A DNA stretch of 64,000 bases from Planctopirus ephydatiae (GTDB lineage: Bacteria; Planctomycetota; Planctomycetia; Planctomycetales; Planctomycetaceae), in contig NZ_CP036299.1 of NCBI RefSeq assembly GCF_007752345.1, positions 3,063,501 to 3,127,500 on the forward strand, given 5' to 3'. The first letter of the stretch is position 1; every line of letters starts with the position of its first letter. Below are positions 21,613 through 30,546 of this stretch, in pieces. Position numbers and translations under genes: made by a program. Under the pieces are notes generated by a model that saw only the letters and a program-made list of their open reading frames with translations, did not search any database and was not told the DNA's origin.

Positions 21613-22458
21613 TTACGAATGCGTATGCTCCGGCCCGGGAAACTGGCCGGCATGGACTTCCTGCACATAGGCGCGAGCAGCACTGCGAATCTGCGAATCG
21701 ATTTCTGCAAACCGCTTTAGAAACCTGGGGGAGAAACCTGGCGTGATACCCAGTAAATCGGGCCCCACGAGAACCTGTCCATCACAGTGTGGGCCAGCAC
21801 CAATGCCGATGGTTGTAATTCGCAAAGATTTGGTCACGAGTTCGGCAATTTCCGAAGGAATCAGTTCGAGGACAATCCCGAAAGCTCCCGCCTCTTCGGC
21901 CGCTTTCGCATCAGCCAGAATCACGTCGGCATTGCGTTGAATCCGCCCTAATCCGCCCAATTTGTGCATTGCCTGCGGTCTCAACCCCACATGGGCCATC
22001 ACGGGGATATCGGCATCAGCAATCCGGCGAATTGTCTCGGCCTGCAAGGCACCACCTTCCAGTTTGACTGCTGCCGCTCCGGTTTCTTTAAGGATGCGAC
22101 CGGCATTCGCCACTGCCTGATCGCCATTCACCTGATAACTCATGAATGGCAAATCGACGATCACCAACGCCCGCTGACAGGCCCGAGCCACGATTTCACC
22201 GTGATAGATCATCTGGTCGATCGTGACAGGCAATGTCGAACTACGACCTTGCACAACCATTCCTAAAGAATCACCAACCAGCACGCAGTCGACACCAGAC
22301 TCATCAAAAGCCTTTGCCATCAGGAAGTCGTAGGCTGTCGCCATGGCCAGTTTTTCGCCGCGAACTTTGGCTCCCTGAAAACGGGGAACTGTCATCCTGG
22401 GGCCAGTGAATGATCCTTCAGACTGACTGGGAGAAGGGAGCGGTGGATGGTGCGACAT
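21613..22458 (-). CDS. panB: 3-methyl-2-oxobutanoate hydroxymethyltransferase
   Basis: First committed step of pantothenate (coenzyme A) synthesis: transfers a hydroxymethyl group from 5,10-methylene-tetrahydrofolate to 2-oxoisovalerate to give ketopantoate. The 281 residues match PanB throughout: MATAYDFLMAKAFDESG, VGDSLGMVVQG with metal ligand Asp63, TIDQMIYHGEIVARA, VDLPFMSY with the second metal Asp102, VKLEGG, IPVMAHVGLRPQ, GIGAGPHCDGQVLV, and DLLGITPGFSPRFLKRF. The start adds about 20 residues before the conserved MTVPRFQGAKV; that internal ATG is a possible alternative. Other pan genes are not in the window. It reads away from the hairpin-rich spacer at 22.5-23.4 kb. Confidence 0.96.
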   Translation of the reverse strand: MSHHPPLPSPSQSEGSFTGPRMTVPRFQGAKVRGEKLAMATAYDFLMAKAFDESGVDCVLVGDSLGMVVQGRSSTLPVTIDQMIYHGEIVARACQRALVIVDLPFMSYQVNGDQAVANAGRILKETGAAAVKLEGGALQAETIRRIADADIPVMAHVGLRPQAMHKLGGLGRIQRNADVILADAKAAEEAGAFGIVLELIPSEIAELVTKSLRITTIGIGAGPHCDGQVLVGPDLLGITPGFSPRFLKRFAEIDSQIRSAARAYVQEVHAGQFPGPEHTHS

Positions 22459-22918
22459 GATAAAAATCTGAATCTCATGGGTGAACAGAGCATGGAGAGC
22501 TACTGTCGATGATGGCCAACCAGTCCCAGCGAGACAACTTCGACAGGTGGAAGTTCACCCTGAAATACTGAAAATGTGGCCAGACACTCAGCATTCAGCG
22601 GCTCTACACCCCCCAAAAATGTGGTGCCTCACCTCAAGTGGTTGGATGAACGACAATGTGCCCTACATGAAAAGGTGACGAAAGCCACCCATGCACAGAT
22701 GATCAAAATGTGTAACAACCCGAATAGAAAGTGTTTTCATGAACACTACTCATGTGATTTTCTACCACAAGGGTGAATGCAGAGTGTTTGTTTTCGCTGC
22801 ATCATTTTGCAACAACCACCTGTGCGATATTCGATCACAGGCTGATTAATTGAGGGGTGATCTCACTATTTGTGCATTCCAAAGTGCTATAACTCGGTCC
22901 AACCCGAGAAACTCAGGA

Positions 22919-22935
22919 TTGGCATAGAATGTGCC
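22919..22935 (+). promoter_or_regulatory. Sigma-54 (-24/-12)-like promoter motif
   Basis: TTGGCA then GTGC, with GG (22921-22922) and GC (22933-22934) separated by exactly 10 bp, as sigma-54 promoters require. Predicted transcription would start near 22946 and run into the hairpin at 22991-23029, giving an RNA of about 85-90 nt. The same bases form hairpin 2 of the candidate RNA, so the two readings compete. An NtrC-type activator is encoded at 29125. Confidence 0.35.
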
Positions 22936-22990
22936 ACTCATGCTGTTCATGAGTTGCGACAGGCGTTGGCCCGCACTTGTCGTTACTTAC

Positions 22991-23029
22991 GAAAGGGTGA
23001 CCTGCACTCTCAGTGTGGGTCACCCTTTC
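22991..23029 (+). terminator. Orphan terminator-like hairpin
   Basis: A perfect 12-bp stem (22991-23002 with 23018-23029) with a further CACT/AGTG inner stem, followed by TCTCC. It is not downstream of any protein gene on the plus strand, and on the minus strand panB starts 530 bp further on. Confidence 0.6.
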
Positions 23030-23398
23030 TCCATTCCATCACGCCCGATATCTCACTTATCTTCTCAAGCCTGCTCAAAATTCGCTTTCCTTGATTCCAC
23101 TGGTCAAGCATAAAGTGCGCCTCCACTAAGTTCAATTGGCTGGATTTTCAAGTTTCGGAACCAGGAAGCCTCGGAGCGGCATGTTTTCGGGATGCCCTTC
23201 TCAATTGGGGCCAACAGTGCTGGACCCGCTGAGATTCCCGCCACTTCGACAAAAGTTCGCCAGCGAACTCAGCTCCGAGATCACTACGGGGCATTTCACT
23301 CCCGTGGATTGATGGAACAGTCAGCCACCTGTATTGTTCCCTTATTAGAGATGGTCTTTTGGCACGAAGTTCGACGAAGAGATCTGTGGAGTAGCGTT

Positions 23399-24448
23399 GT
23401 GACAGAACGAGTTGTCATTATCGGTTCCGGCCCGGCAGGATGGTCAGCAGCAATTTATGCAGCACGAGCCAGTCTCGAACCCCTGGTATTCGAAGGTGCT
23501 ATCTCCGAAGAAAATCGTATTCGTGGTACTCTGCCACTGGGTCAACTCGCTCTCACAACCGAAGTTGAAAATTATGCCGGCTTTCCTGCAGCCAATCTCA
23601 CACAATTTCTGGAGACGGCACTTCCCAAAGAGCGTCGGCAGTACATGGCACCCCACTCAGGCCATGGAGTGACCGGGCCCGAACTGATGGAACTGATGCG
23701 TGCCCAGTCAGTGAACTTTGGAACGAGGATTATCACGGCAGATATCGTTTCCGCTGATCTTTCAAAGCGACCATTTGTTCTGAAAACTTCTGACGATACG
23801 GTTGTTGAAGCCCATTCGCTGATCATTGCGACTGGTGCCCGCGCCAACTATCTGGGCCTGCCCAGCGAAGATCGCTTTAAAAATCATGGGGTCTCGGCCT
23901 GCGCCGTTTGCGATGGAGCTCTACCGCGCTTCCGCAACAAACCACTGGTGGTTGTTGGTGGTGGTGACAGTGCCATGGAAGAAGCGACTTACCTCTCCAA
24001 GTTTGCGTCGAAGGTTCATCTCGTTCATCGTCGCGATGAATTCCGTGCCAGCAAAATCATGGCGGCCCGTGTGCTGGACAATCCTAAAATTCAGGTCGAA
24101 TGGAGCTCTGCCGTCACTGAGGTTCTGGGGGATGACCAGCACGGTGTCACTGGTGTGCGGCTGAAGAGTCTCAAAGATGATTCTGAGCGAACACTTGAGG
24201 CAGCCGGTATGTTCTGCGCCATCGGCCATACGCCCAATACAGATTTTCTTGCCGGGCAGATTGAAACGGACGACAAAGGTTACGTTGTCTACAAGACGCC
24301 GTTCCGCACAGAAACCTCCGTCGAAGGTGTGTTTGCCGCTGGTGATGTCGCCGACAGCTACTATCGCCAGGCGATCACCTCAGCCGGCACGGGTTGCATG
24401 TCGGCACTCGATGCCGAACGCTGGCTGGCCAGTCGGGGAATCCACTAG
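23399..24448 (+). CDS. trxB: Thioredoxin reductase
   Basis: FAD enzyme passing electrons from NADPH to thioredoxin. I use the GTG at 23399 ([15 protein letters not shown]) because the FAD-binding GxGxxG motif normally begins within a few residues of the start; the open frame runs 69 codons further upstream, with an ATG at 23351 as an alternative. Seen: FAD motif GSGPAG, the redox-active CAVC (Cys168/Cys171 in this numbering), the NADPH-binding [31 protein letters not shown] and the C-terminal [10 protein letters not shown]. About 20 residues ([21 protein letters not shown]) are inserted after [10 protein letters not shown] relative to E. coli TrxB. The M24 peptidase and OleD-like genes follow at short spacing on the same strand, so the three may share a transcript. 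Confidence 0.93.
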
Positions 24449-29124: not shown

Positions 29125-30546
29125 TTACAGCTCATACTCGCGAATCTTGCGATAGAGCGTGCGTTCGCCGATTCCCAGCAGATTGGCAGCTTCGTCGCGC
29201 TTTCCACCGGTCAATTCCAGCGCCCGGGCAATGTAATACTTTTCGACATCGTTCAACGAACGCCCGATGAGTCCATCGTTCCCGGCAGGATGCTGAATGA
29301 GATCAACTTCGCTGTGTTCATGATGGCCAGCACCAATCCCTTCCGGAAGATCGTCCACATCCAGTTTGCCATCGATGTCGAGCACCATCATCCCTTCCAC
29401 CACATTGCGCAGCTCACGAATATTTCCCGGCCACGAATAAGCCATCAAGGCCTGTTGAACCTGACGGGTGACGGTGGGAATCGGCTTTTTTTGACGCTCG
29501 GCAAACTGCTTGAGAAAATGATCAATCAGGAACGGGATGTCAGCTCGTCGCTCACTGAGTGGTGGCAAGACAATCGTGACGACTGAAAGCCTGAAGTAAA
29601 GATCTTTGCGGAAAGTTCCCTTCTTGATCATGTCCTGCAGATCAGCGTTGGTCGCAGCCACGAGCCTGACGTTGATCGGAATTTCGTCGTTCGCACCCAG
29701 CCTGGTAATGCGACGCTCTTCGAGGACTCGCAGCAATTTGATTTGTGTGGCCATGGGCATTTCGCCCACTTCGTCAAGAAAGAGTGTCCCTCCGTTGGCG
29801 TATTCAAACTTTCCTATTCGCTTCGTGGCCGCTCCTGTAAACGCACCGGCCTCGTGACCAAACAGTTCACTCTCGAGAATGCTCTCGGGGAGGGCAGAAA
29901 TATTCAGTGGAACAAAGGGCTTGTTTTTGCGTTCGCTGTTCTGATGGATCGCCCGCGCCACGAGTTCTTTGCCAGTCCCGCTTTCTCCCTGAATCAGGAC
30001 TGTACTATCCGTCGGCGCCACGCTTCTCAACTTTTCAATGAGCCGGTGCATCGAAGGACTGTTGCCAATCACCCCTTCAAAACCAAACTTTTCATCAAGT
30101 CGCCGGCTGAGTTCAAATGTCTTTCTCAGCAGGCGGATACGCGAACTGGCACGGTCCACCGCTTGCCTCAACTCACTGATATCAAGCGGTTTTGTAAGAT
30201 AAGTATGAGCCCCGTGCTGTCCCGCTGTCAGTGCCGATTTGATCGAGGCATGCCCGGTCAGCAATATGACTTCGGAATCCGGAAGTTCAGCCTTTGACCT
30301 GCGCAGAATCTCCAGGCCATCCACTTCGTCCATCATCAGTTCAGTGATGATCACATCAAAGTTCTCAACCTCAATCAGGTCGAGTGCCTTCTTTCCGGAT
30401 TCTGCTCCGGCCGAAGCGACTGTGCAGTCGTAACCCACACGCGTCAGACTGTCAGCCACGGCTTGTGCATGGGCTTCGTCGTTGTCCACAATCAGCACGC
30501 GGACACGGACTTCACTCGTTTCTGCAGGCTTGATTTCCTTGGCCAT
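29125..30546 (-). CDS. Sigma-54-dependent response regulator (NtrC family) with altered receiver site
   Basis: Bacterial enhancer-binding activator of sigma-54 promoters. The 473 residues hold a receiver domain (about 15-130), a AAA+ domain (157-385) with Walker A GESGTGKE (187-194), the sigma-54-contacting GAFTGA loop (234-239), Walker [10 protein letters not shown] and the sensor region FRKDLYFRL, and a C-terminal Fis-type HTH (about 432-471). In the receiver, the acidic pair (Asp21, Asp23), Thr97 and Lys119 are present. The residue expected to be the phosphorylated Asp is Glu69 (IITELMM, where the family has TDL). Glu can mimic phospho-Asp, so the protein may be constitutively active or regulated otherwise. 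No histidine kinase is adjacent. Confidence 0.94.

Follow-up and report, generated by a model that had tools for sequence, protein, structure and literature searches.

The spacer between panB and trxB in the window (the whole 64-kb stretch of planctomycete DNA that was analysed) is densely packed with inverted repeats, and it raises the question of whether these belong to an RNA of their own, to the leader of a downstream gene or to DNA that serves as control sites. The original prediction had proposed a structured RNA of about 300 bp on the plus strand, either a small RNA or a riboswitch-like leader. The spacer was read directly, and both of its neighbours score above their NCBIfam cut-offs, as had been supposed (table 1); the true start of trxB probably lies further in, since the TIGR01292 match begins well inside the listed frame. 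Our findings support a model where a small-RNA gene is very probably present in the spacer, at about 22946-23029, and where the interval 22796-23029 would constitute the gene of a sigma-54-driven, trans-acting small RNA, a reading to which, judging from sequence, we give a probability of about 0.85. The notion of a small structured plus-strand RNA is thus borne out: both conserved stems covary, the gene has its own promoter and closes with a terminator-like hairpin, relatives throughout the family (Planctomycetaceae) keep it, and no Rfam family matches.

Table 1. Features of the small-RNA locus and of related genes (window coordinates, except where a locus is named)
Feature	Position	Strand	Remarks
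panB	21613-22458	-	Divergent neighbour; TIGR00222, 292.6 bits (NCBIfam cut-off 207.55)
Activator (enhancer) site, GTTGTTGCAAAATGATGCAGC	22796-22816	-	About 140 bp before the predicted start; best site in the window, 23.7 bits
Sigma-54 promoter, TGGCATAGAATGTGCC	22920-22935	+	-24 GG at 22921-22922, -12 GC at 22933-22934; 8 of 11 consensus positions
Predicted transcription start	22945-22947	+	About 12 nt past the -12 GC, from sigma-54 promoter geometry
Small RNA, about 85 nt	22946-23029	+	Alignments and covariation; covariance model R1 matches 22947-23049, 69.4 bits
Hairpin 1	22956-22983	+	Stem 22956-22963/22976-22983
Hairpin 1, inner pairs	22965-22966/22973-22974	+	Loop 22967-22972 (UGGCCC)
Conserved tip, GCGUUGGCCCGC	22963-22974	+	Proposed contact site
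Hairpin 2, intrinsic-terminator-like	22991-23029	+	Sequence differs between genomes, structure kept
trxB	23192-24448 (listed frame)	+	Downstream neighbour; TIGR01292, 355 bits (NCBIfam cut-off 343.45)
NtrC-type response regulator	29125-30546	-	REC, sigma-54 activator and Fis HTH domains; 7 kb from the RNA
Planctopirus csrA paralogue	L228, 1501-1680		Sigma-54 box, then a glgC-like gene (by eye)

Structure and Conservation of the RNA

The repeat search recovered the packed inverted repeats that had been described, namely 22991-23008/23012-23029 (18 nt, 89% complementary), 22910-22925/22940-22955 (16 nt, 75% complementary), 22933-22942/22948-22957 and others. When folded as RNA, 22898-23035 reaches -60.2 kcal/mol (z = -6.3, with none of 200 shuffles as good), and the longer interval 22731-23035 still gives z = -5.2 (none of 100 shuffles as good). 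Of the five back-to-back stems first reported, two, the hairpins at 22956-22983 and 22991-23029, are conserved in relatives. The stretch 22922-22936 is the sigma-54 promoter, and 22938-22954, which spans the presumed start site, is not conserved in the sister species. The upstream inverted repeats are control DNA (promoter and activator site) and not RNA, which shortens the supposed RNA of about 300 bp to about 85 nt. An extended -10 element (TGCTATAAC) near 22885, with a start near 22900, was dropped in favour of the sigma-54 box because two sister genomes do not keep it (CGCTAGAAC and TGCTCGAAC).

In relatives the elements keep one order: a GGCA(C/T)-N-GTGC box comes first, the conserved hairpin follows some 20 nt later, and beyond a linker stands a GC-rich hairpin of unrelated sequence that has a T-rich end. 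We read 45 distinct places that match the core, with near-identical contexts merged, and kept 42 with the full anatomy; three (L037, L041 and L067) were judged not to belong, in part because they lack the promoter box. RNAalifold predicted both hairpins from the sequence-only alignment of these 42 copies, in which 95.8% of the cells are standard pairs, two-sided changes occur in 15 of 23 pairs and none of 500 shuffles reaches any of five covariation measures; sliding one arm lowers the pairing to 38-49%. A larger alignment of 95 copies, which was fitted to the covariance model and so leans towards the structure, gives 94.4% standard pairs and two-sided changes in 20 of 23 pairs. (Six opposite-strand matches were left out of 110, and 90 of 97 sources were used for alignment A3.) Stem conservation in related genomes, chosen beforehand as the test of the RNA, is thus observed, and both conserved stems covary.

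The most constant sequence is the tip of hairpin 1. That it is invariant among the first 42 copies is in part a selection effect, because these were picked by the tip pattern, and the 58 copies found later by the model are a fairer measure: GCGUUGGCCCGC is exact in 35 of them and GGCCCGC is present in 53 (72 and 90, respectively, of all 95 aligned copies). The bases GGCCC are each unpaired in 73-94% of the 95 single-sequence folds. The T-run that follows hairpin 2 is short in the window genome (TTTCTCC), and most other members of the first alignment have a longer one; a terminator scan did not list this hairpin. A small-protein gene was considered and rejected: there is no conserved open frame, as the three frames through the core run without a stop codon in 44, 33 and 55 of the 95 copies, and the linker between the two hairpins varies in length.

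Promoter and Activator Site

The sigma-54 -24/-12 element is marked by a GG and a GC twelve apart, and transcription from such promoters starts about 12 nt past the GC. At least 8 of 11 consensus positions are matched in 39 of the first 42 copies (at best 39 of 45 if the set-aside non-members are put back), versus about 5% of 2,913 other windows. A cleaner test is provided by the 58 model-found copies, as the covariance model behind them has no promoter columns: a box stands at the expected distance in 54, compared with 1.9% of 6,766 control windows, and is missing from four (L122, L132, L138 and L143). Across the 95 aligned copies the box reaches at least 8 of 11 positions in 89, each base of GG and GC being kept in 92-93, a distribution in which the window's own box is middling with its 8 of 11.

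A motif search upstream of the RNA copies yielded a palindrome with the family consensus GTGTTGCA-AAA-TGCAACAC. Trained on one set of copies and tested on the other, it finds a site at 12 bits in 38 of 55 copies versus 2 of 344 control windows; the reciprocal cross-validation gave 24 of 41 versus 2 of 384. With its fixed-spacing GG/GC box and its upstream activator site, the RNA gene is, as far as sequence can class it, sigma-54-dependent. We also searched whole genomes with an operator pattern drawn from the consensus and from the window's own site. In each of two Planctopirus genomes (G000 and G001) the only perfect match sits upstream of the RNA, and sites within two mismatches number six in G000 and eight in G001, versus one control match in each. 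Seven of the 12 sites that lie away from the RNA in these genomes were read, and only the one at csrA, discussed below, has an ordered box of 9; at L188 and L194 a 9/11 box is close to an operator site in the wrong orientation. At three mismatches, ten further genomes gave 116 sites versus 107 for the control, so operator sites alone are uninformative; among 30 such loci that were read, a box of at least 9 stands in order in three, two of which are RNA copies and one a pilin-like gene; the csrA of G004 is not among the three. In G062 (L369, near 1500-1800), a 22.7-bit activator site and a 9/11 sigma-54-like box precede a prepilin-like gene, which may also be part of the regulon.

Distribution

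A nucleotide search of 59 genomes returned an exact match of 23-24 nt in two further genera of this family, besides the window's own genome and two congeners. With a 24-mer and up to three mismatches, the core was found in 46 of 297 relatives and the reversed control pattern in one; a 15-mer core with two mismatches matched 197 of 197 genomes and was discarded as uninformative. Covariance model R1 extends this spread to 134 of 170 family genomes and 55 of 58 family genera at E 0.001 (119 genomes at 1e-6), leaving 36 of the 170 genomes without a match at E 0.001. Matching genomes carry 1-4 matches, some of them 2-4, partly in tandem, and the same anatomy of promoter, hairpins and activator site recurs in the 95 aligned family copies. 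One genus shows three tandem copies at each of three loci (L137, L139 and L158), all with a sigma-54-like box.

Model R2, run against 392 genomes of the phylum, matched 57, of which 25 belong to the family and 32 lie outside it, the latter at no more than 38.0 bits. The matches of five outside genomes (L279 and L282-L285) were read: no GGCCCG occurs near any of them, and the promoter box of one reaches 8 of 11 positions without the GG. On the basis of these five of 32, nothing convincing is seen outside the family, with the proviso that the boundary drawn by R2 is not clean, because the family members G109 and G084 score about as low as the outside matches and G066 and G010 are unmatched. An exact 20-mer of the core retrieved 50 stretches from a collection of 84,980 species; 48 carry planctomycete titles, with genera such as Gimesia and Schlesneria, one is named only 'bacterium' and one Streptomyces, and the set-aside L067 is among the 50. 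That locus, near 2990 in G061, has a core match without a promoter or clear terminator and is perhaps a decayed copy or a chance match. Viral contigs gave no match to the RNA core.

Candidate Activators and the csrA Link

Which protein might read the palindrome? At five loci the RNA lies directly upstream, on the same strand, of a gene for a sigma-54 activator with FHA, GAF and AAA+ domains, whose relative in G000 also has a Fis-type HTH. A long match to this protein is found in 18 of 18 genomes tested, that of G021 lacking the FHA part. An RNA copy directly precedes the gene in 7 of 15 loci fetched, one copy being degenerate; as five of the 15 genomes had been picked for this arrangement, only the other ten are independent, and 2 of these 10 show it, one of them with the degenerate copy. 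In G000 the gene, at C1:3387036-3388448, is about 300 kb from the RNA. The assignment is weak: no activator site above 14 bits occurs at the gene in G000 or G001, and of the first five RNA copies beside it one stays at or below 7 bits and another has only 9.6 bits. We name the FHA-GAF-AAA+-HTH protein as the leading candidate, a tentative one at somewhat below even odds. A possible alternative is the NtrC-type gene in the window (table 1). In G001 an activator match lies at a similar distance from the RNA, but among the matches listed for G062, G004, G064, G202 and G021 no activator is within 100 kb of the RNA. In G000 the activator query has 27 matches.

The same activator site (21.5 bits), together with a sigma-54 box (9/11), is found at a csrA gene in G000 and G001. 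Three operator sites are common to the two genomes within two mismatches, and one of these is intergenic and is followed in both by the sigma-54 box and then by csrA. The gene encodes a 60-residue CsrA that passes the Pfam cut-off and does not reach the NCBIfam equivalog cut-offs. In another genus (G004), a csrA gene has a site of 21.3 bits and a downstream box of only 7/11. Our survey fetched 29 csrA loci, in which 26 starts were recognised; a box of at least 9 lies within 450 bp in 10 of the 26 (about 2 by chance, as estimated from the background rate), and an activator site above 20 bits in the three just named. Several other csrA genes have a sigma-54 box without an activator site. When only the top-scoring csrA paralogues are considered, 19 of which were recognised, three have a box of 9, each of them lacking a site above 12 bits. 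The link between csrA and the switch is, overall, firm in one genus (Planctopirus), suggestive in a second, and not seen as a family-wide feature. An association of sigma-54 with csrA is already on record: the predicted sigma-54 promoters of Planctomycetia are enriched for csrA-type genes, and Pirellula sp. strain 1 has a csrA with such a promoter (PMC12316311). The accessible part of that paper names no shared activator site and does not contain the term 'sRNA'.

Mode of Action and Alternative Explanations

We propose that the palindrome, about 140 bp upstream, is the binding site of an AAA+ sigma-54 enhancer-binding protein, which opens the -24/-12 promoter in response to its signal. The sigma-54 RNA polymerase would then make an RNA of about 85 nt, released at hairpin 2, on which hairpin 1 would display the tip as contact site. 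In Planctopirus the same switch probably turns on csrA too, and therefore the RNA and an RNA-binding regulator would come on together. The likeliest mode of contact is that the tip pairs with mRNAs, independently of Hfq, which we consider about an even chance. Hfq-family proteins were found in none of 20 genomes, the same search being positive in 5 of 14 control genomes. Complements of the tip with at most three mismatches, counts that include the RNA gene itself (one of the 19 in G000), number 19 versus 16 for the reversed control in G000 and 25 versus 11 in G001; no target is supported, because the complements of G000 hardly exceed the control. Thirty complement loci were read as candidate target sites and none was convincing. 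A 14-nt complement of the tip lies about 118 nt inside a gene with a twin-arginine signal, common to G000 and G001 (L288 and L291, 1501-1517).

The main rival to mRNA pairing is a role as protein ligand or decoy, where a single protein would bind the conserved tip, similar to what is described for GlmY, a decoy of RapZ, in the accessible part of a published account (PMC7073468). The strict conservation of the tip described above, the lack of a detected Hfq and the absence of a clear excess of complements in G000 speak for this role. Pairing with several mRNAs usually demands less conservation than a 12-nt exact tip. No candidate protein was found, however, and the shorter constant part GGCCCGC would also suit a short pairing seed; we regard the protein-binding role as possible, at well below even odds. 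A further rival is a sponge for CsrA. CsrB and RsmZ are such sponges, and the RNA resembles them in its link to CsrA, here through shared control; the csrA genes of G000 and G001 (and that of G004, with its weak box), which share the activator site, as well as the 5-17 CsrA-family matches in each of 30 of 30 genomes, would fit. Yet GGA occurs in 72 of 95 copies versus 73.5 expected by shuffling, and is fully unpaired in only four, so a sponge is unlikely, GGA motifs being neither enriched nor exposed.

Two further explanations do without a free-standing RNA. A conserved hairpin followed by a terminator-like one on the trxB strand is what a riboswitch or attenuator in the 5' leader of trxB, or of another downstream gene, would look like. 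The neighbours, however, change from genome to genome, the downstream genes being in many cases on the other strand: even the commonest, panB, adjoins only 29 of 104 RNA copies and is divergent in 27 of those 29, and a trxB-related gene is near 12 of the 104. As the RNA also has its own promoter and end, the leader suggested by the original prediction is left unsupported, and we judge it very improbable. Slightly less probable again is that the repeats act at the DNA level only, as palindromic regulatory sites for panB and trxB with no RNA made. Part of them are indeed DNA sites, but the compensatory changes include G-U steps, and the promoter, hairpin and terminator keep a fixed order on one strand and recur beside unrelated genes. 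A trans-acting small RNA with its own sigma-54 promoter is the reading that we retain.

Comparison with Known Systems

As had been noted for the known structural RNAs, the locus matches no described family: across the window and 20 related loci, nothing in Rfam 15 scores at or above a gathering threshold, and the sub-threshold matches to mir-1193 and sX14 (E-values 2.8 and 1.2) were rejected. Searches of the open-licence literature yielded no description of this RNA or of another planctomycete trans-acting small RNA, and the planctomycete names looked for are absent from a 2021 survey of 26 bacterial genomes. As far as these searches go, they support the view that the RNA is undescribed. The Rhodopirellula-1 motif is a candidate structured RNA of Planctomycetes and Proteobacteria, probably cis-regulatory as the table in the accessible part of the source reads (PMC2864571); unlike it, the present RNA is free-standing and found only in the window's family, a distinction that is drawn from the description only.

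Activator-controlled sigma-54 promoters drive other small-RNA genes, GlmY/GlmZ and CrcZ. These belong to other hosts and, as far as is known, have other sequences and partner proteins, and no Rfam match is seen here. The closest parallel is Qrr of Vibrio, whose model we take to be among the 4227 of Rfam. Both have a sigma-54 -24/-12 promoter, a short RNA with a terminator and, in some genomes, several copies. Qrr sRNAs act in an Hfq-dependent manner; here, no Hfq and no Rfam match were found, the conserved hairpins are two versus four predicted Qrr stem-loops, and both activators tested fall short of the LuxO model's cut-off (248 and 320 versus 800 bits). As given in the accessible part of the source, the qrr genes of V. 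fluvialis have a LuxO site with the core TTGCA-W3-TGCAA at -89 to -119, and qrr1 adjoins luxO (PMC11443567). The family operator, around -140, contains that core as TTGCA-AAA-TGCAA, the window's own site matching it in one half only (TTGCA-AAA-TGATG), and the RNA copies beside the FHA activator gene in some planctomycete genera recall the qrr1/luxO arrangement. We suggest that the RNA may work like Qrr, apparently as an independent counterpart, and claim no relatedness.

Because the RNA recurs across a family that yielded no Hfq, an entire regulatory circuit may so far have been overlooked. It is conceivable, though doubtful, that Planctomycetaceae share an Hfq-free circuit: a single sigma-54 activator, reading a LuxO-like operator, would turn on the tip-conserved small RNAs, joined in some genera by a CsrA paralogue. 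Such a circuit would be an independent Qrr-like architecture with its own way of matching small RNA to target. With promoter, activator site, structure and wide spread known, a direct test is possible in Planctopirus limnophila, a laboratory species that is genetically tractable. The RNA would reveal how trans-acting RNA control is built in bacteria without a detected Hfq, and touches on the many CsrA paralogues of the family. Overall, the locus parallels the Qrr design of Vibrio as far as the operator core, apparently by independent origin.
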